A stretch of 64,000 bases of DNA from a virus: positions 1 to 64,000 of IMG/VR virus record IMGVR_UViG_3300033145_000668; one strand, given 5' to 3'. The stretch's first letter is position 1. Every line of letters begins with the position of its first letter. Positions 35,622 through 52,175 of this stretch are shown here, piece by piece. The notes beneath the pieces were generated by a model. The model searched no databases. It saw only the letters and a list, made by a program, of their open reading frames with translations, and was not told the origin of the DNA. A program made the position numbers and the translations under genes.

Positions 35622-36125
35622 ATGGCAACTCAAACAAAAAAATGGTATAAAGAACAATTAAAACTTATAGATAAATATTTACCAAAATTAAAAAAATTAT
35701 TAAACACAGAAAATATTATATTAAATCCAGTTACTATAATAATTAATAAGAGAAAACATATGAGAAGTTTATGTGGTAGATGGGATGGTGAAAAAATAAT
35801 TTTATATAAATACCATTATTCTGGTTTAACAAAAGAAACTTTATTACATGAATTATTACATTGTTTTATATCACAAAATAAACTATGGAAATATGATAAA
35901 AAATCTAAATTATTTAATAAATTAGTATTAAACTTAAATACTAAAAAATTGAGAATTGGTAGTTGTCATGGTGCTTATTTATGGAAATATAAATGTAATT
36001 GTGGAGCTTGGTTAAAGACAAATGATAAACGTATAAATGGATGGAGATGTAGTCAATGTGGAGAACATATTAAAAAACCAATAATTAATATGACAAAGAA
36101 AATAGATTTTTTAATTAATCTTTAA
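35622..36125 (+). CDS. SprT-like zinc metalloprotease
   Basis: 167 aa. HELLH motif at residues 76-80 (zinc and catalysis) and a C-terminal zinc ribbon (CNCGAW...CSQCGEHI). This domain pair is that of SprT/Spartan proteins, which cut DNA-bound or other proteins. Last + strand gene; it converges with, and overlaps by 15 nt, the next gene on the other strand. Confidence 0.75.
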   Translation: MATQTKKWYKEQLKLIDKYLPKLKKLLNTENIILNPVTIIINKRKHMRSLCGRWDGEKIILYKYHYSGLTKETLLHELLHCFISQNKLWKYDKKSKLFNKLVLNLNTKKLRIGSCHGAYLWKYKCNCGAWLKTNDKRINGWRCSQCGEHIKKPIINMTKKIDFLINL

Positions 36126-37253
36126 TTCTAATAAACATTCTTTTGCTTTAATTGCTGAATTGTTCCAAGTCCATCTTTTAGAATCTTCTATAGCTATTTT
36201 ACTTTTTTCAATAACTTCATTTTTATTATCATAAATATATCTCATTTGTTTTCTAATTTCTTTTATAGATGGATATTTCCACGATATATCTTCATACATT
36301 ATATCCCACTTAACTTCTTTCATTTCTCCCTCCTTTAATAACCAACCATTTTCTTCGGTTACGAAATCAGATTGCCCACCATACTCCGTTGCCAAGACCG
36401 GTTTACCACAAGCCATTGCCTCCAACGGCGGAAGATTAAACGACTCTGCTAACGATGTAGTAACAAATACATCGCTTTTATTGTATAATGTGCTTAATTG
36501 GCTTAGAGTAATATTATCTGTAACAATGTTCAGTTTAGGTTTATTTGTATTTTGAATATCTAAATCTTTTATATTTTTATCCAAGTCAACGCCATAACAA
36601 GCATTAATTTTTACTAACATCTCTGCATTATCTTCTTTAGTAAACTCTTCCATAAATGCTTTTATTCCATAACTTATTCCGCCTCTATCCTTCCACGAAC
36701 TCGGCCAACCTTTGTTCATCATAAAAGTAAACTTATCACTAGCTTCTTTAGGTTGTTCTTCAAAAATAGATAAATCAACTCCATGAGGAACTATTTTAAT
36801 TTTATCTGCTATGTCAGGATGAAAACAAAAACTTTCTCCCTTATGTTCTACTCCCTTTATTGTTTGATTTAAAGTATTTAAAATAGCATTTTTTGTATGC
36901 ATAGATGGAACCCAAATTTGAGTTACTCTTTCATCTTCTAAAATATTTAACCAACCTTTCGGTATTCGGTCGCCTTCGTGCACTACCATTCCTATGAATT
37001 TTTTGTCTTCGCATAGATAATATTCCCAACTCGGCGGAGTGCTTATTAATAAATTCACGTCAGCATCTAATCTGTTTCTTTGTATCATTTTTAATTCTTC
37101 GTCATTAACTCGTCTTAACCAATCTTCGGGTAGGTTAGTTGTAATACTAACGTCTATATTATCTAATTTATTCAGATGATTAGAAAATTGTCTAGCGTTA
37201 TTTGAATATCCGTCGGTTCCAAAAAAAGACGAAATTATATTAACGTTTAACAT
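36111..37253 (-). CDS. glycosyltransferase, GT4 family
   Basis: About 380 aa starting at MLNVNIISSFFGTDGYSN; an earlier in-frame start would lie deeper in the HNH gene. It has the GT-B ending DVFVTTSLAESFNLPPLEAMA, with the E-x7-E motif that binds the nucleotide sugar, and GYSNNARQF near the N-terminus. It transfers a sugar from an activated donor. Last gene of the - strand modification island; its start lies inside the upstream HNH gene end. Confidence 0.82.
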   Translation of the reverse strand: MLNVNIISSFFGTDGYSNNARQFSNHLNKLDNIDVSITTNLPEDWLRRVNDEELKMIQRNRLDADVNLLISTPPSWEYYLCEDKKFIGMVVHEGDRIPKGWLNILEDERVTQIWVPSMHTKNAILNTLNQTIKGVEHKGESFCFHPDIADKIKIVPHGVDLSIFEEQPKEASDKFTFMMNKGWPSSWKDRGGISYGIKAFMEEFTKEDNAEMLVKINACYGVDLDKNIKDLDIQNTNKPKLNIVTDNITLSQLSTLYNKSDVFVTTSLAESFNLPPLEAMACGKPVLATEYGGQSDFVTEENGWLLKEGEMKEVKWDIMYEDISWKYPSIKEIRKQMRYIYDNKNEVIEKSKIAIEDSKRWTWNNSAIKAKECLLELKIN

Positions 37254-37857
37254 TTGAGTTCCCAAACAATTTATTATCTGCACCGTGAAATAAATTCATA
37301 AATACTTGCAATTGCCAAATCCAATATTCTTTTCTTTTTTCCGCGTGTAACGTTCGATGACAACACCTACATAATGAAATTAAATTATTATCGACGCAAT
37401 TTAATTTATTATAATCTATATGATGAACAGATAGTGTTTCTTTTAATTTTTTATTTTTATTATTACATACTTGACAAATAAGTTTATCTCTTCTTCTAAT
37501 CTTTTGTCTTAATTCCTCAGTCCACTTTTCGGAATATCTTAATAATCCTCTATCTGCTATCCATAGATGATGTTCTTTACCTCTTTTCATTACTTGTAAT
37601 TTTCGTTTTTCTCTTATAAGTTTTTTTGTTTTTTCGGTGTGAGGATGTCCTTTATGCGGAGGATTTATTTTGTTTAATCTACTTCTATTAGGATTCGGTC
37701 TTCCTCTTAACTTTTCAGCTTGTCTTTTAACACCTTCATTATTTTCTTTTGTAAACCCTTTTTTACTCGGATAATCGTATTTTGTCCAAATATAAGATTT
37801 TGGATTTTTTGTTCCACCCTTTACAAATCTTCCCTTTTTATCTCTTTCTATTGTCAT
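37240..37857 (-). CDS. HNH homing endonuclease
   Basis: 205 aa, very basic. The N-terminus carries NUMOD-like repeats (GRFVKGG...PNRSRLNKINPPHKGHPHTEKTKK). The HNH core is CQVCNNK...LSVHHIDYNKLNCVDNNLISLCRCCH, and the C-terminus YWIWQLQVFMNLF as in the gene at 24977. It sits between two genes of the sugar island and overlaps both, which indicates insertion. Confidence 0.82.
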   Translation of the reverse strand: MTIERDKKGRFVKGGTKNPKSYIWTKYDYPSKKGFTKENNEGVKRQAEKLRGRPNPNRSRLNKINPPHKGHPHTEKTKKLIREKRKLQVMKRGKEHHLWIADRGLLRYSEKWTEELRQKIRRRDKLICQVCNNKNKKLKETLSVHHIDYNKLNCVDNNLISLCRCCHRTLHAEKRKEYWIWQLQVFMNLFHGADNKLFGNSNVKR

Positions 37858-38624
37858 TTTATATCCGGTTTACCTCCTTTCTCGCTAAACCTCGACGAAC
37901 TACTTGCTCCGCATTCCATACATCTATACCTTTGAAATTTAGAAATTCTTGTCATATAAAAACCATTCTTCTGTAATTTATTTTCTCCACAATTTGGACA
38001 AGCAAACTGTTTGTTTAAATATAATCCGTAATTAGGATGGTTTTTAATATAAGGTAAGAATCTCATATATAATTTCTCAGTTAATCTTACATCGCCTTTA
38101 TTATATTTCATCATTAAGTTCCAAGCTTTTTTATCACCGCTCATACATTGTTTCCATAGTTTAAAACCAGTATGTGGTATCTTTTCTCCTAATTTTAAAT
38201 GTTGTCCTAATGCATTTAATCCATTTTCATTAAACTTAAAATATTGTTTAGCAATTCTATATGTGTCGATATTTTTTACATCCGAAAAAGGTTTAAAACT
38301 ATGATATAAGAATCTTGCATTTAATTTTCTAATATCAAAAGAAATACTATTATGTCCAATAACTATATCTGCCGAATCCAATAATTCCCACAACTTATTA
38401 CATAACTCTAAATCATTAGTTTTATCTTTTTTATACAAACTAAAATCATTTAATTTGAATCCGTGAACTTTCTTTTCTCCTAACCATTTATATGCGAATG
38501 ATAACATATACCATTCTTCTTTAAACTCTATTACATTCTGGTCGTACTTTCCCCATGTGTAAGATAAGTTTGGAGACGTTTCTATATCAAATATTAGTAT
38601 CTTAGGTTTATTGTTTTCTTTCAT
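37854..38624 (-). CDS. RNase H-like 3'-5' exonuclease with zinc ribbon
   Basis: 256 aa. DnaQ/PolB-type exonuclease motifs: FDIETS near residue 11, IGHNSISFDIRKL near 90, and a late NKGDVRLTEKLY near 175. The C-terminal 50 residues form a zinc ribbon (CPNCGENKLQKNGF...YRCMECG), a type often seen in transposase-linked proteins. The role may be viral DNA processing; the sugar-island location looks incidental. Confidence 0.72.
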   Translation of the reverse strand: MKENNKPKILIFDIETSPNLSYTWGKYDQNVIEFKEEWYMLSFAYKWLGEKKVHGFKLNDFSLYKKDKTNDLELCNKLWELLDSADIVIGHNSISFDIRKLNARFLYHSFKPFSDVKNIDTYRIAKQYFKFNENGLNALGQHLKLGEKIPHTGFKLWKQCMSGDKKAWNLMMKYNKGDVRLTEKLYMRFLPYIKNHPNYGLYLNKQFACPNCGENKLQKNGFYMTRISKFQRYRCMECGASSSSRFSEKGGKPDIK

Positions 38625-38796
38625 TTTTCATTTGTAGCGTCATTTTAATATTTCTGATATCTTCTTCCATTTGTTTCATTCTTCTAACTAATTGTAAAAT
38701 TGAAAATTCACCGTTCACCGTATAACTTTTTAAATATTTTAATACTTCGCTTCGTTGCGATGAATTCAGTTGTATTCTATTTTGAAATGTGTTCAT
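38608..38796 (-). CDS. small coiled-coil protein, 62 aa
   Basis: Helical, charged product (LQLVRRMKQMEEDIRNIKMTLQMKNERK). Overlaps both neighbours (17 nt at its end, 1 nt at its start), so translation is coupled. Function unknown. Confidence 0.55.
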   Translation of the reverse strand: MNTFQNRIQLNSSQRSEVLKYLKSYTVNGEFSILQLVRRMKQMEEDIRNIKMTLQMKNERKQ

Positions 38797-39701
38797 TATA
38801 TAACACCTCTCATCAAATTAGTAGATTTAATATATTCGTCTGCATCTAACTTTCTTGGAATGGTGTCATTGCTCTCATAATATGTTTTTAAGAAATCACC
38901 GTGGCTTTCATGCATTCTTTTAACCGTGTCTTTAAATACTTGCATATTAAAACCAGCTTTATCTACAGTATCTCTTTCTCCTCCAGAAGGAGTCATCAGG
39001 TGGTAATTAACTGCCCCAGTATTTACCCCTAATTTAAATCCTTTTATAATAGCTTTAAAACTAAATATAGCTTCTTCTAAAAATCCGTGTTTACTTAATC
39101 TACTTTTATAATCAACGCCCGCTTTATGTAATTCTCTACGATACAAACACGAGCTTCTAAAATGAGGAGTTAATAATATTTTTTCTTCAGTATAATGTTG
39201 TCCGCAATCATCACCCATATAAATAAGTTCTCCTTTTTCATTTAATTCACAGTATCCAATTACAGGCTCAACAAACTTCACGTCTCTAACAACATTAGGT
39301 CCAGCAAACGCAGGAACGACTCCAGACATTAAATCATAACCTTGTTCTATCCCATATAATAACTTCTCAATATAATCTGGTTCAACCGCAGAATCATCAT
39401 CAATTCTACAAATCAATTCTTCTTTACCATTCTCCATAGTATAATCAACAAGTTGCTGTCTCGCTCCACTAACTCCAGCACTAATTTGATTTGTCAACAT
39501 AGTTACATTATGTCCTTCTAATTTTAATCTATTAACAAGATAATTTACAAAATAAAAATTTGTAAGTGGAACTAATGATGCGTCATCTAAGATTAAAATA
39601 TTAAAATCTTGAAATGTTTGAGTTCTAAGACTTTGTAATAGTAAAGCTAATTCTGTTGCTCTGTTCTTTGATGCTATATGTATACTTATTTTTTTATTCA
39701 T
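38796..39701 (-). CDS. glycosyltransferase, GT2 family
   Basis: 301 aa. N-terminal GT-A fold: IHIASKNRATELALLLQSL, LILDDAS near residue 38, and the metal-binding DDD-type motif RIDDDSAVEP near residue 99. It probably transfers a sugar using a nucleotide-sugar donor. Four-base overlap with the upstream radical-SAM gene. Confidence 0.8.
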   Translation of the reverse strand: MNKKISIHIASKNRATELALLLQSLRTQTFQDFNILILDDASLVPLTNFYFVNYLVNRLKLEGHNVTMLTNQISAGVSGARQQLVDYTMENGKEELICRIDDDSAVEPDYIEKLLYGIEQGYDLMSGVVPAFAGPNVVRDVKFVEPVIGYCELNEKGELIYMGDDCGQHYTEEKILLTPHFRSSCLYRRELHKAGVDYKSRLSKHGFLEEAIFSFKAIIKGFKLGVNTGAVNYHLMTPSGGERDTVDKAGFNMQVFKDTVKRMHESHGDFLKTYYESNDTIPRKLDADEYIKSTNLMRGVI

Positions 39702-40531
39702 TTTTTAATATCTACCTGACAGTCGAGACCATCAAGGAAGTGATTCATTTTTAACTTAATATCACAATAATTGCAATCTCCAAAATTAGAGCATTTTCTA
39801 TACTGAGGTTTAGGTAAATTATGTTTTAACATTCCCGTAGCAAATTCGTCTTTGTATAAGTCTCGATGACATTTATATATTAATCCGTCAGGAGCAATTA
39901 ATAATTCTTTAGATTTACAAACTACATTTTCTAATTTCCCACTTAAACCTTCTGGATATTTATAGGTTCCATATAATTGTCCATCTTGTTCTCCCATAAA
40001 TTCTTTAGGATAAAAAAACAATTTTTTTAATCTAGTAATTTCTTCCATTTGATTGTTTTGTGCTCCTAATTCAGGACTAGTTAATCCAAATATACCTATT
40101 CTATATCCAGCATTTTGTAATTTTTCTGCTTTAGCTGCTAATTCATTTGGTTCCATTTGTGACGGATGATAACTTACTCTAATTGATTTATATGCCGGAT
40201 TATCTTTATCGGTAAACCTTTCAGGAGTAGTATTTTTAATAAATTCATCGACATCAAATTGTAAATTAGTCAATAAATCTACTTTAATATCATCTTTCAA
40301 TCCATTTAATATTTTATAAAAATCCTTATGAATTGTCGGTTCTCCTCCTCCAAGAGTTAACGAAATATCTCTAAAATCAACTTTATTTAATTGTGCTATC
40401 CATTCATCACCCGACATTTCATTTCTTTTTCTTTTTACTGTTTTATTGTCATTAATACAATATGAACAATTAAGATTGCATCGAAGAGTGAGGTAAGCTT
40501 CTACATAATTTATAGTTTCATCTATTTTCAT
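39698..40531 (-). CDS. radical SAM enzyme
   Basis: 277 aa. The cluster motif is CNLNCSYC (Cx3Cx2C) near residue 18, followed by GGGEPT near residue 61, which contacts SAM. The C-terminus has extra cysteines (CHRDL, CSNFGDCNYC) that may hold a second Fe-S cluster, as in SPASM/twitch enzymes. Substrate unknown; the neighbours suggest a sugar or a carrier. Confidence 0.8.
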   Translation of the reverse strand: MKIDETINYVEAYLTLRCNLNCSYCINDNKTVKRKRNEMSGDEWIAQLNKVDFRDISLTLGGGEPTIHKDFYKILNGLKDDIKVDLLTNLQFDVDEFIKNTTPERFTDKDNPAYKSIRVSYHPSQMEPNELAAKAEKLQNAGYRIGIFGLTSPELGAQNNQMEEITRLKKLFFYPKEFMGEQDGQLYGTYKYPEGLSGKLENVVCKSKELLIAPDGLIYKCHRDLYKDEFATGMLKHNLPKPQYRKCSNFGDCNYCDIKLKMNHFLDGLDCQVDIKK

Positions 40532-41202
40532 GGGCGACGCTTCTCCATTTTAGGATAAATAAACATATCAATAATAGCATTATCTCCTCTCGTAGCAGTA
40601 AAATAAATTGCATCAACAACTTCTTTTACATCCATTTGTTCTGGATTAGGTTCATTAAAAGGTGTATTTGTTGCTCCTGGATAAATAGTACTAACAGAAA
40701 TATTAGTATCTTGTTTAATTAATTCATCTCTAACCGAATGAGACATCCCAACGAGCGCATGCTTACTAGCTGAATAAGGACTTAAAAATGCACACTCTCT
40801 AGTTCCAACAGTAGATGCAATATTTATTATTTTTCCATAACCTTGTTCTTTCATTATTGGTATTATATATTTCATCATATTAAACGCACCTTTAACATTT
40901 ACATCCATTACTTTATCAAATTCTTCTTCTGTAATATCTTCTAATTTTCCAGACGTTTTTGTTCCTGCATTATTAACGAGACATCCTATATTTTTAATAT
41001 TTTTATATATTGCTTTTTTAACTTCTTCTGAATTACTTACGTCACATTTAAAAAAATAATTTTTAGTAAATTCTTTACTCAATCGTTCTACTCCTTCATC
41101 TGTAGTAGACGTTCCATAAACTCTCCAATCTTCTCTAACAAACTTTTTAGTTAATTCATATCCAATTCCGCTACTTGCTCCTGTTATTAATATCGATTTC
41201 AT
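40528..41202 (-). CDS. short-chain dehydrogenase/reductase
   Basis: 224 aa. Classical SDR motifs: TGASSGIGYEL (residues 7-17) for NAD(P), NNAG near 77, a catalytic Ser near 130 and YSASK near 142, followed by PGATNTPF. Reduces or oxidises a carbonyl, probably on a sugar intermediate together with the transketolase. ATGA overlap with the upstream gene. Confidence 0.85.
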   Translation of the reverse strand: MKSILITGASSGIGYELTKKFVREDWRVYGTSTTDEGVERLSKEFTKNYFFKCDVSNSEEVKKAIYKNIKNIGCLVNNAGTKTSGKLEDITEEEFDKVMDVNVKGAFNMMKYIIPIMKEQGYGKIINIASTVGTRECAFLSPYSASKHALVGMSHSVRDELIKQDTNISVSTIYPGATNTPFNEPNPEQMDVKEVVDAIYFTATRGDNAIIDMFIYPKMEKRRP

Positions 41203-42605
41203 CTTTTAGTTGGTTCTAATTTATTTGTTTTCTTTACTAATGCTTTTTGCTCGTCATCTGAATGTTGATAATCATAAACATTTTTAGCAAAGAAATCCGT
41301 TTTAACATGAAAGTATGCTTTGAAAAATGCTTCACTATATTCTGCATTTAATGCTTGCTCTACAATCATATCTTTTAACTCTGGATAATAACAAGCAACA
41401 GTTCCGAGCGTAGCAAGATTTTTTAATATTCTTTTTCTATCTTCACTAAAATTCATAACCGAGTGATGCCCAAAAGACATATGCATATCACTGAAGTCAC
41501 CATTGAAATAATTATTTTTTATACAGTAGTCACCCAATTCTGTTTTAGGATACGGTTGATAAATTGGGAAGTCACAATAACCAACTTTATTTTTTATAAT
41601 AAAATCAATACCAGCTAAATCATCTTCTAATGTAGAAGTTGGTAATCCTAACATAATATTTGGAACAACTGTTATTCCATTATCTTGACATAATTTAATT
41701 CCATCTTCCATTGTTTCATTAGACATATTTCTTTTTAGTATATCATTTCTTATTCTATCATTTGTAGATTCAATCGAACATTGTAGCGCTCTACAACCGG
41801 CATCTTTTAATAACCCAACATTTTCTTCATTTAACATATCGTATCTCATCATAGTAAAAAATGGAACTCCTACTTCTTTTGGAAACTTATCTGCAAATTC
41901 TTTTAACCATTTAGTATTTTTAGTAGTAAAAACATCATCATAAAATTTAATAGATTCTAAACCATATTTTTCTTTAATTTGTTTTACTTCTTCTATTACA
42001 TAATCAACCGAATGCTTTCTAATTCTTTTTTGTCCTTTATACATTTTTTTAGCACTACTATTAAAACAATATGTACATTGATACGGACAACCTCTTCCTA
42101 CCATAAAATGTTTAGAACCTGATTTGCCTGTTTCATTACATTCTTCATTATTAAAAAATAATTCTCTATCTGGAAAAGGTAAATCATCTAAATTTTCTAC
42201 TAATGGTCCTGGCTGTATAACTCTATCTACTGGTCTTTCGTAAATAAAATCTTTAAAAGTATTTTCAGCTTCTCCTCTAATTAAATAATCAAACTTCCCT
42301 TCTTCTAATACTTCTGGAAAGTATGTAGCGTGCGGTCCACCAATAACAGTTAATTGATTGGGAAATAGTTTTTTTAAACTTCTATTAAAATTAGTATAAA
42401 ATACATGTTCTCCAGTTCCTCCTCCGTAAGCAACTAAATCCGGTTTATTTTCTCTTATTTTTTGTAATACATTTCCTTTTTCTATTATACCTAATGAAGT
42501 AGTACATCCTTCTTGTTTAGCATTTGCTGATAGTTGCATTATTCCTAATGGAGGATAGTAATCAACTTCTTTCATTACAAACATTATTTTTTCTAATTTT
42601 TTCAT
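41199..42605 (-). CDS. B12-binding radical SAM enzyme
   Basis: About 468 aa from the ATG at 42605, which overlaps the upstream stop (ATGA). Residues 1-150 look like a cobalamin-binding domain (PPLGIMQLSANAK, TVIGGPHATYFPE). GRGCPYQCTYC near residue 175 is the radical-SAM cluster motif. This class often methylates unactivated carbons or makes other hard C-C changes. Substrate not known. Confidence 0.78.
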   Translation of the reverse strand: MKKLEKIMFVMKEVDYYPPLGIMQLSANAKQEGCTTSLGIIEKGNVLQKIRENKPDLVAYGGGTGEHVFYTNFNRSLKKLFPNQLTVIGGPHATYFPEVLEEGKFDYLIRGEAENTFKDFIYERPVDRVIQPGPLVENLDDLPFPDRELFFNNEECNETGKSGSKHFMVGRGCPYQCTYCFNSSAKKMYKGQKRIRKHSVDYVIEEVKQIKEKYGLESIKFYDDVFTTKNTKWLKEFADKFPKEVGVPFFTMMRYDMLNEENVGLLKDAGCRALQCSIESTNDRIRNDILKRNMSNETMEDGIKLCQDNGITVVPNIMLGLPTSTLEDDLAGIDFIIKNKVGYCDFPIYQPYPKTELGDYCIKNNYFNGDFSDMHMSFGHHSVMNFSEDRKRILKNLATLGTVACYYPELKDMIVEQALNAEYSEAFFKAYFHVKTDFFAKNVYDYQHSDDEQKALVKKTNKLEPTKR

Positions 42606-43072
42606 TTTAACTTCTTTAAACTCATAAAACACGGTTCATCAGTTTCAAATATTTTTTTAATACTACAATCTAAAGCTCGTTCATCAATAGGATAAAATTG
42701 CTCAATGTTATCAAATACTAACATTATCGATTCATCAATACACCTATGCGTAATTCCCTGGTCAGGATAATCACAATATCCTATAAGTTTAACATTAGTT
42801 TTCATTGCATCAATATCTACTTTTATCATTTCAAACGCGCGTTCAATTAAAAATGGAGTAATTGTATAGACTAATGGTTTTAATCCTTGTAGAGCCATTC
42901 CTGCAGCCATTGCAACCATCGTTTGTTCACATATACCGACATTAATAACTCTTTCTGGAAAATCTTTTTCACAATCTGTGAAGACGCCATAGCCGATGTC
43001 TCCGAGTAGTAAAACTATTCGCTCGTCTTTTTTCATTTGCTTGTATAGTTCTTTTCCGAATTTATAACGCAT
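42602..43072 (-). CDS. transketolase, C-terminal (pyrimidine-binding) half
   Basis: 156 aa. NVGICEQTMVAMAAGMALQG around residue 44 contains the Glu that activates thiamine diphosphate. A TPFLIERAFEMIKVDI stretch follows. The third domain of full transketolases is absent. Pairs with the N-terminal half at 43229, as in split archaeal transketolases. Likely transfers a two-carbon unit. Confidence 0.8.
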   Translation of the reverse strand: MRYKFGKELYKQMKKDERIVLLLGDIGYGVFTDCEKDFPERVINVGICEQTMVAMAAGMALQGLKPLVYTITPFLIERAFEMIKVDIDAMKTNVKLIGYCDYPDQGITHRCIDESIMLVFDNIEQFYPIDERALDCSIKKIFETDEPCFMSLKKLK

Positions 43073-43095: not shown

Positions 43096-43227
43096 TTAGC
43101 GACTTCCTTTTAATCCACCTGTCTTTTTTCCGACTCCCTTTCCATCAGCTCTTCCCTTACCTTCTCCTCGTCCGTCTCTTGGTCCTTTAGCTCCACTTCT
43201 CGGTCCTGTTTTATCTCTTTTTGGCAT
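43096..43227 (-). CDS. small basic Gly/Arg/Lys-rich peptide
   Basis: 43 aa with a strong GGAGG site before the ATG. The product begins MPKRDKTGPRSGAKGPRDG and continues with GEGKGRADGKG repeats. The opening recalls small DUF5320-like proteins of archaea and anaerobes (MP-x-D-x-TGP). Very basic, so it may bind nucleic acid. It lies exactly between the two transketolase halves. Confidence 0.6.
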   Translation of the reverse strand: MPKRDKTGPRSGAKGPRDGRGEGKGRADGKGVGKKTGGLKGSR

Positions 43228-43228: not shown

Positions 43229-43837
43229 TTATTTTTCCTCCTTTATATTTTTAAAATCATTTATTATCTCCTCATATTTTTCATCTGTAATTTCCATAAC
43301 GTGCGGATATTCTTTTTTTCTACCGTAAAAATCTATGTCTGTAGTTTCCATTAAATTTTCAATCATTTTTACATTAACATCTCTCATTGCTTGTTTACCA
43401 TTATAATCAACGTGAATATGTAAATTAGTTAATTCTAATTCATTTGCTAATATTAAACTTTCCCAGGTAGTTCCTTCAGCGCATTCTCCATCTCCTAATA
43501 AAACATGAATAGTTCCTTCTTCTCCTTTTATAAATTTAGCAACGGCCATTCCAACAGCAAGTGGTAATCCATGTCCTAAGCTACCGGTTGTACAACTTAC
43601 TCCATTTTCAATATCAATATCTGGATGTTGTTGTTTAAAATCTGGATTATAACCATAATATTCTAATACAGTAAATAATGCTTTACACGCGTGACCTTTT
43701 GATAAAATAAAAACGTCATTATCAAAATCAAACTCTTCATAAATTTGTTCTATGATAGGAAGTGCGGATAGACAACTAGCAAAGTGATGGTCACCATATT
43801 CTTTACATACATCTAATAATCTTTGTTTTAGTTCCAT
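43229..43837 (-). CDS. transketolase, N-terminal (diphosphate-binding) half
   Basis: 202 aa. SKGHACKAL near residue 46, TGSLGHGLPLAVGMA near residue 83, and the thiamine-diphosphate motif GDGECAEGTTWES (near 115) ending in N about 25 residues later. Forms an active site with the C-terminal half at 42602. Such split enzymes also serve branched-chain sugar synthesis. Confidence 0.82.
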   Translation of the reverse strand: MELKQRLLDVCKEYGDHHFASCLSALPIIEQIYEEFDFDNDVFILSKGHACKALFTVLEYYGYNPDFKQQHPDIDIENGVSCTTGSLGHGLPLAVGMAVAKFIKGEEGTIHVLLGDGECAEGTTWESLILANELELTNLHIHVDYNGKQAMRDVNVKMIENLMETTDIDFYGRKKEYPHVMEITDEKYEEIINDFKNIKEEK

Positions 43838-43838: not shown

Positions 43839-44930
43839 TTAAATAAAATTAATCCCCCTTGGTGGATTTACGTAATTATAAATAAATTCGTTAATTTTAT
43901 CTTGTCTGCACGCTCCCTTACAATCATTATGAACATCAAAATTCTTCATTGTTTTAATTACTTCCCAATACTTCTCGCTTTCAATTATTTCTTTAATATT
44001 ATTATCATGTATATTACCCATTAAAAATTCCTTTTTTCCGAATAGATGCCCACAAGGAAAAACATCTCCATTACCTGATATTTGTACTAGTAAAGGAATT
44101 CCCAAACATCCATCATAAGGTCTTTTTCCTTCTTGTTCCATTAAAACTCTTTTAGCAATTATTTTAGTATTATCAGTTGACGTCGCTTCACAAATATCTA
44201 ATACTTCTTTTACTCTCGGTGAGTTATAATCTTTTATATCAAACTTTATATCATTAACACTTTCATTTCCTTCTGGTAAACTACATTGTTTAATTAAAAA
44301 ATAATCTACTCCTAACTCTACTGCCAGTTTAGCTTCTACAATCATTTCTTCATCCATCATTCCTGGAACATAAACAGACTGTAAACCAATTTCACATTTA
44401 TATCCTTTTTCTTTTTTTAGTTCAATCATTCTTCTAATATTTTTTAATAGTATATCGAATCCATCTACTCTATGTATTTTTAAATATCCTTCTTTAGTTC
44501 CTGCGCTTAAATTAAATCTCATCCAAGTACAATTTCTTAAAATATTTTCTATTTTTTTATCATCCGTTAATAATAAACCATTAGTAGAAATAGCAATATC
44601 CAATCCATTTTTCTTTCCAACATCCATTGCTTCGTAAATATGAGGATTACAAGTCGGTTCTCCATCTCCAATCAATCCAATTCCTTTAATTCCAATTTTA
44701 GGAGCAGTTTCAAATAAACTAATTAATGCATCTTTTTTGATATGTTCTCCTGACATGTTTTGATAAGCTCCATAACAATAAACACAATTAATATTACAAG
44801 TTTTAGTTGCACCCATATCAATATATAGAGGAGCTATTCTTTTACCATCTCTAAAATGTTCATGAACTCTATCCATATGCCAAAGCAATTTAGTTCCATT
44901 CATTCTGTGTGTTTTGTCTACTTTATTCAT
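43839..44930 (-). CDS. radical SAM enzyme with SPASM-like C-terminus
   Basis: 363 aa. CNINCVYC motif near residue 45, GLIGDGEPTCNP near 88, and a C-terminal cysteine set (CGHLFG, CKGACRQDK) as in SPASM proteins that bind auxiliary Fe-S clusters. Probably modifies a peptide, sugar or base in the island's pathway. Short overlap with the upstream fusion gene. Confidence 0.8.
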   Translation of the reverse strand: MNKVDKTHRMNGTKLLWHMDRVHEHFRDGKRIAPLYIDMGATKTCNINCVYCYGAYQNMSGEHIKKDALISLFETAPKIGIKGIGLIGDGEPTCNPHIYEAMDVGKKNGLDIAISTNGLLLTDDKKIENILRNCTWMRFNLSAGTKEGYLKIHRVDGFDILLKNIRRMIELKKEKGYKCEIGLQSVYVPGMMDEEMIVEAKLAVELGVDYFLIKQCSLPEGNESVNDIKFDIKDYNSPRVKEVLDICEATSTDNTKIIAKRVLMEQEGKRPYDGCLGIPLLVQISGNGDVFPCGHLFGKKEFLMGNIHDNNIKEIIESEKYWEVIKTMKNFDVHNDCKGACRQDKINEFIYNYVNPPRGINFI

Positions 44931-46644
44931 CTTTTTTCATTAACCTCCAATCTGGTACTTTAGCCATTACTATTAAATTATTTTTTTGTGCAAATTCATC
45001 AACAGCAATTTTAACTCCAGGATGATTTGGTTTAATATCATAATCGTGTCCGCATATAATTCCACCATCTTTCAACATAGGATAATAATTTTCTATATCT
45101 TCCTTTACACTTTTATATGCATGATTTCCATCTAAATAAATAAAATCAATGTTATTAGGAATATCTTCAAGTGCGTCGGTAGCTGATTTTTTAATTCTAA
45201 TTATTTTATCTTCACTCCCCTTCAATAATATATTAGATATTTTTTCAGCATCTTCAAAAGACGAGACCTTTAAACTTGTATCCATAGTAGATATGCCATC
45301 TTTAAAATCATCAAACTCGCAATAAGGGTCTATTAGATATAATTTGTCTATATTCAAGTTTTGTAAAATAGATAATGCATTTTCGCCTTTCCAGGTTCCA
45401 ACTTCAACTGCAACTATTTTTTTATCTTCAAACTCTTTCATTGCTATTTCTGTTGAGGGTCTTAATTTTATTTCTTTTATAACCGGACTTGGACATTTTT
45501 TAAAATACATTATATTTCTATACGGTCTACTACTTTTTTCATCATAAATTAATTCAAAATTATGTTTTAATGATAGTTCAAGTAATTTTTCTCTATCGCA
45601 ACCTTTAATATTTTCTTGCATTCTTTTATATCCTTCCTGAACTCCAGAACTAAAACCTTCAAACTGGACTTCCATAATTACTTCATTTGAATTACTAAAT
45701 GCATCATTTAAAAATCTTTCTGTATTAGGAACATGATGTAGCATATTTAATATTAAAATAATATCGTGTCTTTCTGGTAATTTATCTTTACCTGCTTCGT
45801 ATTTCTTAAAATCCATATTAGTAAAACATTTTACTTTTGCTATCTCTCCTGCTGTGTCACAAGCTTGTTGAAATAAATCGTAACCAACTATTCTATTTGC
45901 TCTCATATCTCCAACCTTAAAACAATAATAACCGTTTAAACAACCTATATCTGCAACTGATTTATTTTTCCAATTAACTAAATCCTTTATTTGATTCCAA
46001 GTTTCTATTTCATATCCAGCATATCCTCCTATTTGATAACCATAAGGCAATGATATAGTTTGATAAAATTTATCATAATTAGTTCCATTTAGCGATTCTG
46101 CTGGTAATTTTTTCAAATCTTCAATTATTTTAATTACTTTATTTTCATCAACACCAATTATTATTTTCATCATTTTAGCATATTCTGTAATATTTTTAAA
46201 TTTACCATTTATTGCATGATAACACTCTGCATTAGATAAATTGAAATTTTTATAAATTTTTTCATATGCATTAATAACAAATCTTTTATCTACTCTATCT
46301 GGATTAATTCCTGAATCTCTTGATTGTATTCTATTCACTATTGTCTCTGCGTCTGTAAAAATTATAATTGGTTTAATAATATGAGTTTTTAATTTAGATT
46401 TTAAATACATAAAATTTTTACCATGCATCTTTCCATTTATAATTGATAAATATCCATCTAAAAATATATCGTCGTTTGGTTTGTCTTCGCATTCTTCTAC
46501 AACTTTATCCATTGATAAATTGAACTCTTCTTCCGTTCCATAAATTGGTAATATATCGGCTGGTATTACAAATCCGCCTATTGACTTCGCAAATGTTGTT
46601 TTTCCACTTTCTCCCATTCCTAATAATATTTTTAGTTCAGCCAT
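44923..46644 (-). CDS. P-loop kinase fused to two methyltransferases
   Basis: 573 aa. Residues 1-165: P-loop kinase-like domain with GMGESGKTTFAKS near residue 9. Residues about 215-360: class I SAM methyltransferase (VADIGCLNGYYCF, NMLHHVP). Residues about 390-573: second class I methyltransferase of the Methyltransf_24 type (VAVEVGTWKGENALS, FIYLDGNHAYKS, GGIICGHDY). Such fusions suggest consecutive phosphorylation and methylation of one small substrate. Confidence 0.75.
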   Translation of the reverse strand: MAELKILLGMGESGKTTFAKSIGGFVIPADILPIYGTEEEFNLSMDKVVEECEDKPNDDIFLDGYLSIINGKMHGKNFMYLKSKLKTHIIKPIIIFTDAETIVNRIQSRDSGINPDRVDKRFVINAYEKIYKNFNLSNAECYHAINGKFKNITEYAKMMKIIIGVDENKVIKIIEDLKKLPAESLNGTNYDKFYQTISLPYGYQIGGYAGYEIETWNQIKDLVNWKNKSVADIGCLNGYYCFKVGDMRANRIVGYDLFQQACDTAGEIAKVKCFTNMDFKKYEAGKDKLPERHDIILILNMLHHVPNTERFLNDAFSNSNEVIMEVQFEGFSSGVQEGYKRMQENIKGCDREKLLELSLKHNFELIYDEKSSRPYRNIMYFKKCPSPVIKEIKLRPSTEIAMKEFEDKKIVAVEVGTWKGENALSILQNLNIDKLYLIDPYCEFDDFKDGISTMDTSLKVSSFEDAEKISNILLKGSEDKIIRIKKSATDALEDIPNNIDFIYLDGNHAYKSVKEDIENYYPMLKDGGIICGHDYDIKPNHPGVKIAVDEFAQKNNLIVMAKVPDWRLMKKDE

Positions 46645-47528
46645 TCATCCACCTGTTCTTTTATTTTATTATAACAATCACTATCTGCATTTACAAATAA
46701 ATAATTTTTATTTTCTAAATATTCTTTTCTCATTACTATTTCCGCCGGTCCTGCTCCCGTACTATCTGGAGTTGCTATAATTGTTGGTTTATTAGAATGA
46801 AATCTATGGTAAGTAAACATTGAACTACTTCCAAACATATAATCAATTGTTCTGATATAATAAAATAATTCACTTATAGTTAACTTACTTCTTAAATCAA
46901 TAATAAGTCTATTACTAATATCTAAATTAATTTCTTCTAAATTTCCAATCAAAATACATCTTATATTATTACCGGTGCAATATTCAATAAATTTTTTATA
47001 AAATGTTTCATTAATAAAGATTCCTTTTTTTCTTACATGTATCAAAAGAATTTTAGGACTATTATTTGCTGACTCTAATGGTTTTCTTTCTAAATCTAAT
47101 AAAATATTTTCACCATTTTTCCATTCATAAATTTCCTTTCCCATTACAGCAGAAATAAAAATATCATTATCGTTAATTTTATCTTTCATATATTCTTTTG
47201 TTTCTGATAATCTATAAAATAGAAAATCATTTTTAATATTTTCATAAATAATTCCTTTTTGTCTATCAACACCGTCTGGAAAATAAATATTTTTATAAGA
47301 ACCACATTCTTTTGGGACAATAATCCAATCATCAGAATATCTATTTAATAATTCTTCAGCTGTAAATCTTTCATTAATAAAAGTATTATCATGAAAATAA
47401 ATACAATCTATATATATTTTTATATCTTCTTTTTTAAGATTTTTTTCTTTTAATATTGCTGGTAACATAGCTAAAAGGTCATACCAATCGCCCAACCCAC
47501 ACTGCAGATATAATATTAATTTTGTCAT
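46632..47528 (-). CDS. possible glycosyltransferase, unassigned
   Basis: 298 aa. The C-terminal part reads IDYMFGSSSMFTYHRFHSNKPTIIATP, with GSSS and a later GAGPAE, similar to the nucleotide-binding half of GT-B (GT9-like) enzymes. The N-terminus (YLQCGLGDWYDLLAM) also fits that group. No full diagnostic motif, so the call is tentative. Confidence 0.5.
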   Translation of the reverse strand: MTKLILYLQCGLGDWYDLLAMLPAILKEKNLKKEDIKIYIDCIYFHDNTFINERFTAEELLNRYSDDWIIVPKECGSYKNIYFPDGVDRQKGIIYENIKNDFLFYRLSETKEYMKDKINDNDIFISAVMGKEIYEWKNGENILLDLERKPLESANNSPKILLIHVRKKGIFINETFYKKFIEYCTGNNIRCILIGNLEEINLDISNRLIIDLRSKLTISELFYYIRTIDYMFGSSSMFTYHRFHSNKPTIIATPDSTGAGPAEIVMRKEYLENKNYLFVNADSDCYNKIKEQVDEWLN

Positions 47529-47529
47529 T

Positions 47530-47691
47530 TTATTGTTCCCCTCTCATTGCTTTTACCCAACCACTGTAGCCACCAGATGGATATTTCTTTCCATTTTCAT
47601 CTTTACAAAATACATCTTCAAACCATAATTTTTCTTGTGCCACTTCTTTTAATATTCTAATTTCTTCTTGTGTAAATTCTTCTTTACTCAT
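47530..47691 (-). CDS. small hypothetical protein, 53 aa
   Basis: Start overlaps the stop of the upstream radical-SAM gene (ATGA). Helical first half (EEFTQEEIRILKEVAQEK), then GGYSGWVKAMRGEQ. Unknown function; perhaps a partner of the enzyme. Confidence 0.55.
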   Translation of the reverse strand: MSKEEFTQEEIRILKEVAQEKLWFEDVFCKDENGKKYPSGGYSGWVKAMRGEQ

Positions 47692-48632
47692 ACAAACTTC
47701 ACATGTTCAGGAATATTTTTAATTTTTTTGAGAGCATCATTATATTGTGAATAATAACAAACGTCACATACCGAACCATCGAAATGTTTTTGTTCTTTAA
47801 ATATGCATTCCAAATCTTCTAGTTCTCCCATTTTCATATTATCTACATAATCCCTATTTTGTCCTATAATAGCATATTGCGCTCCGCAGCATGGAAATAT
47901 TCCTTCTGGAGCAATTACTGGTTTTAATAAACTGATATAACAATCTTTTGTACCAAATGTACTATCTTTTCTTCCTTGATAAATAACCTTCGAATCATCA
48001 AAATTATTTTGAAAATATACCTGCAATAAACTTAAATCTGGAACATTTTTTAAATTTAAAAGGTCAGAAACTAATCTTACATGAGTCATATTCACATCAT
48101 TAGCAAACTTTATTACTTCTCCTATTATTTCATAATTAGGATTATTAGTAACAACGTGACTAAATGCCCAACCTGTGTTTGGATTTTTTTGAATAGCATT
48201 ATATATTTTTGAAAAATTAGGAACTCTATCATCTGAACTTGATATTCTACACCAAGTTAAATTATCATGAAATTTTAATTTATCAATATTATTACCATTA
48301 GAAACTAAACCAACTTCCATTCCTTTTTCTAATGCATAATCTATTGTTTCATTAATTTGTTTATATAACATTGGTTCTCCTCCTCCAGTAATAGTCACAG
48401 CTTTAGTACCATATTCTTTACTAACATCTAATATTCTTTTTATTTCTTCAAATGGTATCTTTTTCTTTTTATCTCTATCTGAACAAGAACAAAATTCACA
48501 ATTTAAATCACAAGCATTTGTTGGAATTAACTGGATGTGATATGGTTTAATTTTATCATTATCGTGTATATTATTATGCATTAATTTAACCGGAAATGAA
48601 CTTGCTGATGTGTATGATTCTACTGATTTCAT
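47688..48632 (-). CDS. radical SAM enzyme
   Basis: 314 aa. CDLNCEFC motif near residue 39, GGGEPM near 81, and C-terminal cysteines CCGAQY and CDVCYYSQY, as in SPASM/twitch proteins. Fourth radical-SAM gene of the island. ATGA overlaps on both sides indicate one operon. Confidence 0.8.
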   Translation of the reverse strand: MKSVESYTSASSFPVKLMHNNIHDNDKIKPYHIQLIPTNACDLNCEFCSCSDRDKKKKIPFEEIKRILDVSKEYGTKAVTITGGGEPMLYKQINETIDYALEKGMEVGLVSNGNNIDKLKFHDNLTWCRISSSDDRVPNFSKIYNAIQKNPNTGWAFSHVVTNNPNYEIIGEVIKFANDVNMTHVRLVSDLLNLKNVPDLSLLQVYFQNNFDDSKVIYQGRKDSTFGTKDCYISLLKPVIAPEGIFPCCGAQYAIIGQNRDYVDNMKMGELEDLECIFKEQKHFDGSVCDVCYYSQYNDALKKIKNIPEHVKFV

Positions 48633-49378
48633 TGTGCAAATAATTTCTCCATATCTTTAAATTCTCTAATGTCTAATTTACTTTCATCTTCTTCCATCCA
48701 AATTGCTTTTAATTCACCTTTATCATCATATCCAAATTTTTCTTTATCGTTGATGTATTTTTGTCGTTTCTCTTCTCTTAATTTTTTTGTCATGTGTCCA
48801 AAATGTTTTATCATTACATTAACATTTTGTTCGCTCGGTGTACAATTTTGAGGAATTACGCCACTATGTTCATCTTGAATATCATAAGCAAAATGTGATT
48901 GTACTTTATACATTTCATGTGACATTCTCGCATGTTTATCATTTTCTCCTTTTTTAGGTAGCATAACGTAATGGTCTTCGTCATTTCTCATTTCAAATAA
49001 TGGAAACCCTATACTTTTATCGAATGTATTTAATAAATAAGTTCTAAACGAATTTAAATTAAATTCAGGAACATATTTGTCATGGTCTAAAAGCCAAACC
49101 CATTGACATTTTTCTTCTCTTGCCATATCTAATATTTTTTGATAATCTCTACTCATGTTTCTATTTTTAAAATGTTGTTTATGATATTGAACTACTTTTG
49201 GATGATTAATTAATTTTTCTCTAACCTCATCGTCAGCATCGTTATCAACTACTAAAATTACATCTCCACTTCTTTCAGCGCTTTCAATCCATTCGTTAAT
49301 AAATTCCTTTCCTCCGCGAACTACTAAACCGATGGCGATTTTTGGATTCAATACTATTTCTATTTTTTCTTTATTCAT
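48629..49378 (-). CDS. glycosyltransferase, GT2-like
   Basis: 249 aa. LNPKIAIGLVVRGGKEFINEW opens a GT-A fold. VILVVDNDADDE near residue 38 and WVWLLDHDKYVPE near 93 supply the donor/metal-binding Asp residues. The C-terminus is charged. Substrate unknown. Confidence 0.72.
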   Translation of the reverse strand: MNKEKIEIVLNPKIAIGLVVRGGKEFINEWIESAERSGDVILVVDNDADDEVREKLINHPKVVQYHKQHFKNRNMSRDYQKILDMAREEKCQWVWLLDHDKYVPEFNLNSFRTYLLNTFDKSIGFPLFEMRNDEDHYVMLPKKGENDKHARMSHEMYKVQSHFAYDIQDEHSGVIPQNCTPSEQNVNVMIKHFGHMTKKLREEKRQKYINDKEKFGYDDKGELKAIWMEEDESKLDIREFKDMEKLFAQ

Positions 49379-49535
49379 TTTTTATTCCATTATTTAATTT
49401 ATTTATATATAATTGAAAAGCAAAAAATACTTCTTCTTCAAATGGTTTATCATTTATTCTTCCTTCTTCATTCATAATTCCAGTTAATAATGCTTTTGCT
49501 TCTTTTACGCATTTATCAAATATTTTTTTCGTCAT
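49371..49535 (-). CDS. small hypothetical protein, 54 aa
   Basis: Helical product (FDKCVKEAKALLTGIMNEEG). Its start lies 20 nt inside the upstream fusion gene and its stop overlaps the next gene start. No family recognised. Confidence 0.5.
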   Translation of the reverse strand: MTKKIFDKCVKEAKALLTGIMNEEGRINDKPFEEEVFFAFQLYINKLNNGIKNE

Positions 49536-50811
49536 TTTTTCTCCCAATTAAAATCTGTTCATAAAACGACCAATCTTTCGGTGTTTCTTTTATCTCTATT
49601 CCATATGATTCAATTAACTTAATCCATTCTTCTTTTGTTTTTTTCTGTATATGTGTTGAGTCTGCTTCTAAATTTGGGTCTCCTATGAATGGAATTGAAA
49701 ATAAAAATTTCTTTCCATATTTAGATATATTTGTTAATGTTTTATCTAAATCTTCATCTGATAAATGTTCTAAAACATCTATTGCTGTTATTAAATCTGC
49801 TTCGCATCCAATATATTTTTTTTCATTACTAATATCTCCTATTATCATTCCGGAAGTAAATGCATTTTTTATTGCCCACTCACTTATTTCTATTCCTAAA
49901 CTTTTGTTAACATACCACTTCCAAAAGTATAAATAACATCCTCTTCCGCAACCTAAATCTAAAACACTCTCGGGGTTAAAATAGTCATTCCATTGCTTAA
50001 CCATTAAACTATGTTTAACTTCTAATCCTCTATTAGCGAAATAAATCTCATCTTTATCAATACTAAATTTATTTAAAATAATCTCCGGTAACTCAATAGG
50101 ATTTAATTTTGTAACAGGATACATTCCAAATAAATGCGCTCTACTCCAATTATTCAAAAAATCTTTTTCGTGACTAACATCTTTTAGATGTCTCAACATT
50201 TGACCATCATATCTTTTTTTAACATCCCATACACCTCCAACATAGCCCATGTGCCAAATAACACCATTATGAAAATTATAATTTTTTAATTCTTTAGCAG
50301 ATAAAATACAATGTTCTGCATCTGGAAAAAATTTATCATTTGTAATTTTAAATACTCTAATAGGAACAAAATGAATTGGCTTAGTAGAATCTTCATGACA
50401 TAAATTTCCAATTAAGTGTCTCATTCTTGGATTAAACGTATCATTATCTTCCCAATCATGTTCATCTAATAATTTTCTATAAGCAGAAAAATCATCTACT
50501 ATCTCATCAGAGTCCAAATATAAACACCAATAATCTTTATAATTTTCTTTTAAATAATTTAACCAATAATTTTTTTGTTTTGATATTGCTAATTTATCTT
50601 TTTGAATAAATTTATTTTTAATTATATCTATTTTATCGTCTGGTTTTTGATTTCTGCAAAATTCTAGTACCATATCTAATGTATTATCTGTACTCCCACC
50701 ATCGCAAAAAACAATCGCATCTGCGGTTTTAACCGATTCTAAGCACATATCAATTGTATTTTCACAATCTTGCCCCATGATAACACACACTATGCGATTT
50801 TTATTTTTCAT
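49516..50811 (-). CDS. GT2 glycosyltransferase fused to methyltransferase
   Basis: 431 aa. N-terminal GT-A domain (MGQDCENTIDMCLESV; FCDGGSTDNT near residue 35; LYLDSDEIVDD near 95). C-terminal class I SAM methyltransferase from about 270 (VLDLGCGRGCYLYFW, ITAIDVLEHL). Such a protein could add and then methylate a sugar. Sits near the promoter-proximal end of the island. Confidence 0.82.
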   Translation of the reverse strand: MKNKNRIVCVIMGQDCENTIDMCLESVKTADAIVFCDGGSTDNTLDMVLEFCRNQKPDDKIDIIKNKFIQKDKLAISKQKNYWLNYLKENYKDYWCLYLDSDEIVDDFSAYRKLLDEHDWEDNDTFNPRMRHLIGNLCHEDSTKPIHFVPIRVFKITNDKFFPDAEHCILSAKELKNYNFHNGVIWHMGYVGGVWDVKKRYDGQMLRHLKDVSHEKDFLNNWSRAHLFGMYPVTKLNPIELPEIILNKFSIDKDEIYFANRGLEVKHSLMVKQWNDYFNPESVLDLGCGRGCYLYFWKWYVNKSLGIEISEWAIKNAFTSGMIIGDISNEKKYIGCEADLITAIDVLEHLSDEDLDKTLTNISKYGKKFLFSIPFIGDPNLEADSTHIQKKTKEEWIKLIESYGIEIKETPKDWSFYEQILIGRKNDEKNI

Positions 50812-50938
50812 TTTGAGTATATATCATTTTTATTTTTCCGCAATTATTACAAATTACTTCTGTTCGTTTTTTTAAATCATTAATCATAATTCTGAATAAT
50901 TTCTTTTTACAATCATCGCATCGTTGTCTTTGTTCCAT
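50801..50938 (-). CDS. small zinc-ribbon protein (Com-like)
   Basis: 45 aa: CDDCKKKLFRIM...VICNNCGKIK, a CxxC-CxxC ribbon like phage Mu Com, a translational activator of a methylase gene. It overlaps the start of the methyltransferase fusion by 11 nt, which fits such a role, but this is inference. Confidence 0.6.
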   Translation of the reverse strand: MEQRQRCDDCKKKLFRIMINDLKKRTEVICNNCGKIKMIYTQNEK

Positions 50939-50939
50939 C

Positions 50940-52175
50940 TTAATAACTACCCCCCAATTCTTCTATAACTTTTTTCCACTCTTCTTTTAATACATTCCAG
51001 TCGTAGAATTTCATGACAGCATCTCTTCCATTTATTCCCATTTCTTTTCTTTTATCTGGATTATTAAATAAATAATCTAATTTTTTAACACCATCTTTAA
51101 TACTACAAATTCCTCGTTCTACTGCCCACGAACCTGTTATTGTTCCATCTATTATTTCTGTTCCATGAACGTCTGGATTTTCTTCTTCTGTTGTTCCAAC
51201 CAAATTTATTCCTAAACCTGCATTATTATCAATCACAAGTTCTTTAGTAGTAGTATAATTCGTAGCTAATACCGGAACCTGACAAGCCATTGCTTCGATT
51301 ATAGGAATACCAAATCCTTCTCCGGATGTAGTTAATAAAAAACAATCCATTACATTATAAACTTCATTCATATCTTTTTCATCAAATCCTTTATAATATT
51401 TAGTACCAGTAAAAAATACTCTATTTTGAATTCCATATTTATTTATTAAAGAATTAATTGGAAAAACTTGTGCATTATCATCGGGGTCACAATGTAACAT
51501 TAAAACAGCATTAGGATTTAGTTTAGCATATTCTCCCATTATTTTTAATGTTCTATCTAACATTTTTCTTCCTTGATTTCTTGCCACTACTCCAATAACA
51601 AACTTATCATTTACTCCCCACTTTTGTCTTAATCTATTTCTTTCTTCTATAGAAACTGGAAAATAATTTGAAATATCTATTCCGTGAGGTATATGGCGGG
51701 TTTCTAAATTATGAACTTTTTTACATTGTTCTTTACCAAATTTAGCCATCGCTATCGGTACATCTACTTTCCTTAGAATATTTTCACAACCAAGCGGCAT
51801 CCCTCCTCCACCATCTGAGGGAAACCAAAAGATTGTTTTAGCTGGAGATAAATCTAATTCAAGTAAAAATGGATAAAGCATGAAGGTGTCTAAAAGTATT
51901 ATAAGAACATCTATTTTAAACTCCTTAACATAAGTCGATAATAAATCTTTAAAATAAGCTTCTCTACCTTGTCCCATAATTGTGAAGTTTAATTTTCTAC
52001 CATCTTCAAATGTTACTGGAGGAACTATCGTTTGTCCTACATAAGTGTGAGCAAAATATCTAACATTATGTCCTTCTTCTACTAATATGTTTCCTAAACT
52101 TTTTGCCTGATTCGAGTACCCTGTTGTTATAAATGGAGAATCACTTAGTATTCCTATATTAAAACTTGTTTTCAT
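50940..52175 (-). CDS. glycosyltransferase, GT4 family
   Basis: 411 aa. SPFITTGYSNQAKSL near the N-terminus (glycine-rich acceptor loop), RHIPHGIDISNYFP in the middle, and CFLLTTSGEGFGIPIIEAMAC with the E-x7-E donor-binding motif near residue 285. It resembles the enzyme at 36111 in the opening TGYSN/DGYSN segment, so the island starts and ends with related enzymes. Confidence 0.85.
   Translation of the reverse strand: MKTSFNIGILSDSPFITTGYSNQAKSLGNILVEEGHNVRYFAHTYVGQTIVPPVTFEDGRKLNFTIMGQGREAYFKDLLSTYVKEFKIDVLIILLDTFMLYPFLLELDLSPAKTIFWFPSDGGGGMPLGCENILRKVDVPIAMAKFGKEQCKKVHNLETRHIPHGIDISNYFPVSIEERNRLRQKWGVNDKFVIGVVARNQGRKMLDRTLKIMGEYAKLNPNAVLMLHCDPDDNAQVFPINSLINKYGIQNRVFFTGTKYYKGFDEKDMNEVYNVMDCFLLTTSGEGFGIPIIEAMACQVPVLATNYTTTKELVIDNNAGLGINLVGTTEEENPDVHGTEIIDGTITGSWAVERGICSIKDGVKKLDYLFNNPDKRKEMGINGRDAVMKFYDWNVLKEEWKKVIEELGGSY

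Follow-up and report, generated by a model that had tools for sequence, protein, structure and literature searches.

What does a tailed virus make with four radical-SAM (S-adenosylmethionine) proteins, a split transketolase (TK) and a set of glycosyltransferases (GTs) encoded in one run of genes? The question is raised by IMG/VR virus record IMGVR_UViG_3300033145_000668, a linear record of 95,174 bp of which positions 1 to 64,000 were analysed (64 kb, hereafter the window). The plus-strand terminase, major head and tape-measure genes of this virus occupy 1-36 kb (tested: 6347-7144, 15986-16888 and 27142-29022). From 36 kb onward the window carries minus-strand genes, among them the island considered here (36.1-52.4 kb, ~16 kb). 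Judged from its sequence, the island is a single transcription unit: it forms one minus-strand run (52418-36111) with gaps of -44 to +23 nt over 21 junctions, in agreement with the original prediction of an operon-like run with tight junctions. We read it, with a probability of roughly 0.55, as a glycan operon owned by the virus, the core of which makes a carbon-branched sugar. The enzymes that carry this reading are the two core radical-SAM enzymes, rSS and rS1, and a thiamine diphosphate (ThDP) enzyme, here a TK split into a ThDP-binding subunit (TKN) and a pyrimidine-binding subunit (TKpyr).

Both rSS and rS1 showed the CxxxCxxC motif and a C-terminal set of auxiliary-cluster cysteines typical of radical-SAM SPASM/twitch proteins. 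In rSS these residues (C45/C49/C52 with C275, C293, C337 and C341) were invariant or nearly so among 36 sequences, and in rS1 (C18/C22/C25 with C205, C221, C247, C253 and C256) they were invariant in 36/36. Relatives of rSS were found in 42 IMG/VR loci from clearly different viruses; since the loci were collected by a motif-based scan that started from viral sequences, every count is a minimum, and nearer cellular homologues may have escaped detection. The rS1 gene was found near rSS in 28 of the 34 non-redundant loci, the window counted. A maximum-likelihood tree placed 32 non-redundant viral rSS sequences and two contigs from metagenome-assembled genomes (MAGs) in one clade (support 100/99). 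One of the MAG contigs, L091, carries other phage genes, and the other, L052, is 5.7 kb long; a divergent rSS copy in L047 fell outside the viral clade. In the rS1 tree, which held only four cellular rows, the 36 viral rows were found on one side of a branch (96/93), and more cellular rS1 orthologues exist (e.g. 360 bits in an Omnitrophota genome). A search of 50,697 phage records with rS1 gave no match at E 1e-6, and the B12-type radical-SAM protein of the island gave remote matches only when used as a viral probe. By these comparisons the core enzymes are a lineage of their own across dozens of unrelated uncultured viruses, a recurrence which suggests that viruses make sugars so far undescribed. 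In L121 (15274-17304), from the phage group of L042/L043, a long intein-like insert starts inside the radical-SAM cysteine motif of rSS.

A ThDP enzyme was encoded within 10 kb of rSS in 31 of the 34 non-redundant loci, as E1-alpha/beta (15), split TK (10) or acetolactate synthase (ALS)-like protein (6). Exactly one kind was found within this distance in 38 of all 42 viral loci; the other four (L011, L015, L023 and L051) showed none, and in each of them rSS lies close to the contig end. The kind of ThDP enzyme changed at least nine times among the viral rows of the rSS tree and 15 times in all, and an earlier, larger tree agreed. Such repeated swapping suggests that the step itself is important and that its donor may differ between viruses. 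The ThDP motif (GDG...N) was present in TKN and the catalytic Glu (GICEQ) in TKpyr, and the motifs were also found in the related sets. A 2025 review lists three kinds of ThDP enzyme for which C-branching of keto-sugars is known or has been proposed: YerE-like enzymes of the acetohydroxyacid synthase (AHAS)/ALS type, the E1-type alphaKADH2 and split-gene TKs (PMC12247030; also PMC4753412). The three kinds found in the viral modules are the same three.

The AlphaFold2 (AF2) model of rSS (mean predicted local distance difference test score, pLDDT, 94.7) was compared with the PDB using Foldseek, and DesII came first, followed by SuiB, anSME, BlsE and BtrN. DesII structures took ranks 1-6, with E-values of 5e-18 to 8e-16 and template modelling (TM) scores of 0.64-0.70 (best E 5e-18, TM 0.69). 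DesII converts TDP (thymidine diphosphate)-4-amino-4,6-dideoxyglucose to TDP-3-keto-4,6-dideoxyglucose and also dehydrogenates TDP-quinovose (PMC11434129), and BtrN oxidises an alcohol of 2-deoxy-scyllo-inosamine (PMC9012708). With 32 bits against a cut-off of 450, rSS stood outside the DesII sequence family NCBIfam TIGR04426, and thus it is no DesII itself, though it may act in a similar way. The protein is proposed to be a nucleotide-sugar oxidase or lyase giving a keto-sugar. The nearest solved relative of the B12-type protein was AprD4 (PDB 6fd2, E 1e-17), a sugar diol-dehydratase rather than a methylase, which makes a plain methylase role for the protein, and with it the C-methylated sugar offered originally, uncertain. 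AprD4 partners with a short-chain reductase. In the island a short-chain dehydrogenase (SDR) gene directly follows the B12-type gene with a 4-nt overlap, and by analogy the two proteins may resemble the AprD4-reductase pairing, which is a lead only.

The DesII-like fold, together with the same three ThDP kinds, makes a keto-sugar first and a two-carbon branch second the simplest joint reading. In the proposed route, rSS, aided by rS1 and perhaps by the B12-type protein, would oxidise or deoxygenate a sugar, most likely host-derived and nucleotide-activated, to a keto-sugar. The two-subunit ThDP enzyme would put a two-carbon unit on the ketone, with hydroxyacetyl from a ketose as donor in TK-type viruses and acetyl from pyruvate in E1- and ALS-type viruses. 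The SDR and the methyltransferases would reduce and cap the branched sugar, and five or six GTs would assemble a short glycan, with the virion as its most likely carrier and the host surface as a less likely one. Unusual sugar chemistry in a viral context had been predicted originally and is supported, above all in its branched-sugar option. Several points weigh against this reading. The likeness of rSS to DesII is remote (~17% identity), and the peptide-modifying SPASM enzymes SuiB and anSME rank close behind DesII. Branching by split TKs has been proposed for miharamycin and amipurimycin and has not yet been shown in vitro (PMC12247030). Neither a nucleoside diphosphate (NDP)-sugar synthase nor a 4,6-dehydratase is present in the window's island, so that a host precursor must be assumed. 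In L037-L041 the module and two GT-like genes are embedded among replication genes, which suits an early role too. Finally, every reaction, product and target of the island is inferred, the direct observations being gene content, co-occurrence, one viral lineage, the fold similarity to DesII and mutually exclusive ThDP kinds.

The glycan is probably targeted to the virion. In loci of the L010-L025 group the module continues through its two GT4 genes, mostly by overlapping junctions, into the large terminase gene (TerL), with a portal gene and a capsid-type gene (major capsid protein, MCP) beyond; TerL was tested, and the portal and capsid labels were read from sequence. In the podo-like phages G018, G030 and G036 the core was found near replication genes, and a GT-like gene lies one gene downstream of the major head protein gene, its product showing 32-35% identity to a member of the Anp1-like GT family and a weak PHROG glycosyltransferase match. 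It is these two arrangements, the run into TerL and the GT-like gene beside MCP, that favour the virion. Seven viral contigs carry a group II (TCP-1-like) chaperonin gene just upstream of the sugar module (e.g. L016 5186-6589), which suggests archaeal hosts for them. The tailed virus of the window probably has an archaeal host as well, since haloarchaeal tailed viruses gave the best-covered phage matches to its family-B polymerase (54175-56613) and its record contains PTH2 and Thg1 genes (Pfam). In three module-carrying podo-like phages an ATP-grasp protein ends the structural operon (L119 14654-15964, L123 12851-14182 and L126 10127-11440), the one in L119 being GARS-like by Pfam.

A search for the island in other viral genomes, suggested with the original prediction, found most of the block in near-same order in L012 (62.9-kb contig G001) and L048 (55.9-kb contig G034). 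Both share the order p79, GT4b, GT2-MT (a GT2-methyltransferase fusion), GT2b, GT9-like, rSS, TKN, TKpyr, GT2a and GT4a downstream of polB, and QueD, QueE and a phosphoribosyltransferase were also found in both. L012 has convergent structural genes directly after the block and additional PfkB kinase, cytidylyltransferase-like, epimerase-like and LicD-like genes, and it has no rS1. As most of the block recurs in these two contigs, the gene set is, by its sequence, not a chance assembly.

The virus might instead have copied a host surface-polysaccharide cluster that alters the host surface (e.g. to block superinfection) and yields no virus-specific product, a case already named in the original prediction as refuting it. 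Part of that case stood. Homologues of rSS were found in 64 GTDB loci, most at 37-46% identity, and, two viral-clade MAG contigs aside, the best cellular rSS among 84,980 species showed 46%. The usual cellular operon encodes a second SPASM enzyme (rSS2), an epimerase, a nucleotidyltransferase/PfkB-kinase fusion, E1a, E1b and rSS (e.g. L078 3241-11077), and it recurs in Methylomonas, Methylobacter, Aquitalea and others; Pfam supports the identities of the fusion and of rSS2. The 64 loci held E1 (36), TK (8) or ALS (3) enzymes, with none seen in 17. Several of these operons lie inside polysaccharide or other glycan clusters with GTs, and the annotated plasmid examples from Solidesulfovibrio and Azospirillum are glycan clusters; viral glycan clusters are, moreover, already known. 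What did not stand is a close cellular source, as the gene order was shared with viral contigs only. Viral rSS forms one clade (34 rows, 100/99) that excludes the main cellular groups at 37-46% identity, rS1 is likewise viral-sided (96/93, few cellular rows), and some phages keep a minimal form of five genes with nothing else of a polysaccharide cluster beside it, all of which makes a copied host cluster unlikely. Far less probable is a cluster for ribosomally synthesised and post-translationally modified peptides (RiPPs), in which the radical-SAM/SPASM enzymes would modify a small peptide such as the 43-aa basic open reading frame (ORF) between TKN and TKpyr. SPASM enzymes are often peptide maturases, SuiB and sactisynthases were among the fold matches of rSS, and a small basic ORF is present in the operon; this ORF, however, is not conserved, most relatives having the two TK subunits adjoining or overlapping, and the insert in L048 encodes an unrelated ORF. 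No conserved precursor peptide was found beside the maturase, neither a RiPP recognition element nor a protease or exporter was seen, and many loci contain sugar enzymes alongside the module, so that this reading is largely refuted.

The hypermodified base originally offered as another product fared poorly. A separate 7-deazaguanine set was found ~4-9 kb upstream of the island (window 56615-60970), consisting of DpdA-like, FolE2, phosphoribosyltransferase, QueE and QueD genes, with QueE (59659-60285) as a fifth radical-SAM gene outside the island. The DpdA-like protein (56615-57376) showed 28.6-28.8% identity to Chryseobacterium MA9V-3 and Cellulophaga phiST proteins and 23% to an annotated Flavobacterium phage DNA guanine transglycosylase. 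The combination of FolE/QueD/QueE with DpdA that marks 7-deazaguanine DNA modification is thus present, apart from the island. By analogy (PMC6884629), this pathway most likely puts 7-deazaguanine into DNA, perhaps in a 7-carboxy form; QueC was not found in the 95-kb record, and the base may therefore be 7-carboxy-7-deazaguanine. That the module makes a modified base or sugar for DNA would agree with its place among replication genes in several phages and with a virus whose genes suggest DNA modification by another route (DpdA). The separate upstream pathway nevertheless disfavours a DNA base as product of the island. QueD was found in only 2 of 36 module contigs (absent from 34), which indicates that the module is independent of 7-deazaguanine, and a part for the island in that synthesis was rejected. 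A hydroxymethyl-pyrimidine or Tet/JBP base route was rejected as well: no thymidylate-synthase-type hydroxymethylase was found in G000 and 36 related contigs, and none of 30 contigs had a Tet/JBP match over the cut-off (one match of 13 bits fell below it), absences that are soft because the contigs are fragments. As the GT-like gene beside MCP and the runs into TerL also point to virions, DNA hypermodification by the island appears quite improbable.

Beyond the carbon-branched sugar preferred here, a wider view is possible and more doubtful: a virus-specific radical-SAM nucleotide-sugar lineage would feed interchangeable ThDP carboligases (at least nine swaps) and give virus-only branched sugars on the capsids of archaeal and bacterial viruses, as a modular, long-maintained diversification system.

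The genes of the island are listed in Table 1, and all of the originally predicted enzyme classes were recovered. Pfam found all four radical-SAM proteins, one of them B12-type, inside the island, together with the SDR, the N and pyrimidine subunits of the split TK (the C-terminal domain being absent) and three methyltransferase domains in two fusions, two behind a P-loop and one with GT2. At least four to five GTs had been expected; five score in Pfam, and the sixth, GT9-like protein is only probable, its weak model (pLDDT 61) having GT-B glycosyltransferases as top folds (TM ~0.35). The RNase-H-like/HNH pair is apparently an insertion, since it is missing from this position in relatives and GT2a directly adjoins GT4a in L012.

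Table 1. Genes and ORFs of the island in order of transcription (window positions).
Feature	Position	Strand	Basis
p79, small conserved protein, first gene of run	52179..52418	-	33% orthologues at same position in L012 and L048; no Pfam match
GT4b, GT4 glycosyltransferase near operon start	50940..52175	-	PF00534 E 1e-21; 46-48% orthologues at same place in L012/L048
45-aa CxxC-type small ORF	50801..50938	-	ORF only
GT2 glycosyltransferase-methyltransferase fusion	49516..50811	-	PF00535 and PF13489; 44-47% in L012/L048
GT2b, GT2-like glycosyltransferase	48629..49378	-	PF13704 2e-6; 51-53% in L012/L048
rSAM4, radical-SAM, extra C-terminal cysteines	47688..48632	-	PF04055 4e-14; Cys positions
Probable GT-B (GT9-like) glycosyltransferase	46632..47528	-	22-24% to ORFs at equivalent place in L012/L048
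P-loop and two methyltransferase domains (second TylF/Methyltransf_24-like)	44923..46644	-	PF13578 6e-17, PF08242 1e-8; P-loop read from sequence
rSS, radical-SAM/SPASM enzyme, module core	43839..44930	-	Pfam radical-SAM 2e-18 and SPASM
TKN, split TK ThDP-binding subunit	43229..43837	-	PF00456 2e-14; GDG...N motif
43-aa Gly/Lys/Arg-rich ORF	43096..43227	-	Not conserved; absent from that spot in relatives
TKpyr, split TK pyrimidine-binding subunit, without C-terminal domain	42602..43072	-	PF02779 4e-19; catalytic-Glu motif GICEQ
B12-binding-domain radical-SAM protein	41199..42632	-	Pfam radical-SAM 3e-22, B12-binding 8e-11
SDR, 4-nt overlap with preceding gene	40528..41202	-	PF00106 3e-50
rS1, second core radical-SAM enzyme	39698..40531	-	Pfam 2e-12
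GT2a, GT2 glycosyltransferase	38796..39701	-	Pfam 2e-13; 43-45% in L012/L048
RNase-H-like exonuclease and HNH endonuclease, between GT2a and GT4a	37240..38624	-	Pfam; HNH slightly below cut-off
GT4a, GT4 glycosyltransferase, last gene of run	36111..37283	-	PF00534 4e-16; 39-42% in L012/L048

Elsewhere the window starts with a tRNA cluster (1-1825) of 15 full genes and one cut at the window start, directly followed by a DUF2828/DUF7788 (vWA-type) protein (2005-3537). The large terminase is encoded as two overlapping ORFs in different frames (6347-7144 and 7101-7778), to be read as a frame break, a misassembly or a case of recoding, with endonuclease-like ORFs (5686-6357 and 8125-8976) nearby. 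Homing-endonuclease-like ORFs (HNH, LAGLIDADG and others) were unusually frequent, most of them read from sequence only; they were found in the window at 729-1244, 5686-6357, 8125-8976, 24977-25483, 37240-37857 and 57373-58164, and in L007, which belongs to the same record, at 10425-11105 and 14661-15413. L007 also holds, at 9207-10250, 12813-13580 and 13582-13947, genes for Thg1 and archaeal-type PTH2, both identified by Pfam, and an ORF resembling a CCA-adding enzyme, recognised from its sequence.

Virus-encoded glycan synthesis is already known, but a module of radical-SAM and ThDP enzymes for a branched sugar, maintained as a viral lineage in very different phages, was not found in the phage records and papers searched. 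If the reading is true, the module would offer new sugar chemistry that is open to testing, and the unproven branching by split TKs could be assayed with compact viral enzymes. A capsid location of the sugar would make it relevant to the ways in which the particles of archaeal viruses and phages are shielded or targeted.

The original statement that no described viral system has this set agrees with the 50,697 phage records and the literature searched, in which no description of the combination of radical-SAM and ThDP genes was found. Haloarchaeal tailed viruses (arTV), which have the family-B polymerases nearest to that of the window virus, carry 7-deazaguanine genes too, and the main text of their survey does not mention radical-SAM, glycosyltransferase or transketolase genes (PMC8651126). 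Campylobacter phages (Firehammervirus, e.g. CP21) also combine several radical-SAM genes, a TK-like fragment and QueD within one phage, but the fragment is ~26% identical and no rSS or rS1 homologue was found in them at E 1e-6. In CP21 the fragment (L139 8941-9519) lies near QueD and several radical-SAM genes, with no pyrimidine-binding subunit found beside it. The cellular rSS2-to-rSS operon of Methylomonas, Methylobacter and Aquitalea has a homologous rSS and the same three ThDP kinds as the viral module; it forms, however, a separate clade (42-46% in the main group) and includes a kinase/nucleotidyltransferase and an epimerase that are absent from the viral minimal modules. DesII, a radical-SAM nucleotide-sugar deaminase that yields or oxidises to keto-sugars (PMC11434129), is the best fold match of rSS, which differs from it (~17% identity) in having a C-terminal domain of the SPASM type, in which four Cys are conserved, and is predicted only to use a sugar. 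The closest parallel to the ThDP step is sugar branching by YerE-like enzymes (yersiniose), E1 enzymes (avilamycin, paulomycin and aldgamycin) and split TKs (miharamycin and amipurimycin), the same three kinds in sugar clusters (PMC12247030, PMC4753412). Those clusters are cellular and receive the keto-sugar from other enzymes, whereas the module described here is viral and has two radical-SAM genes beside the ThDP gene.

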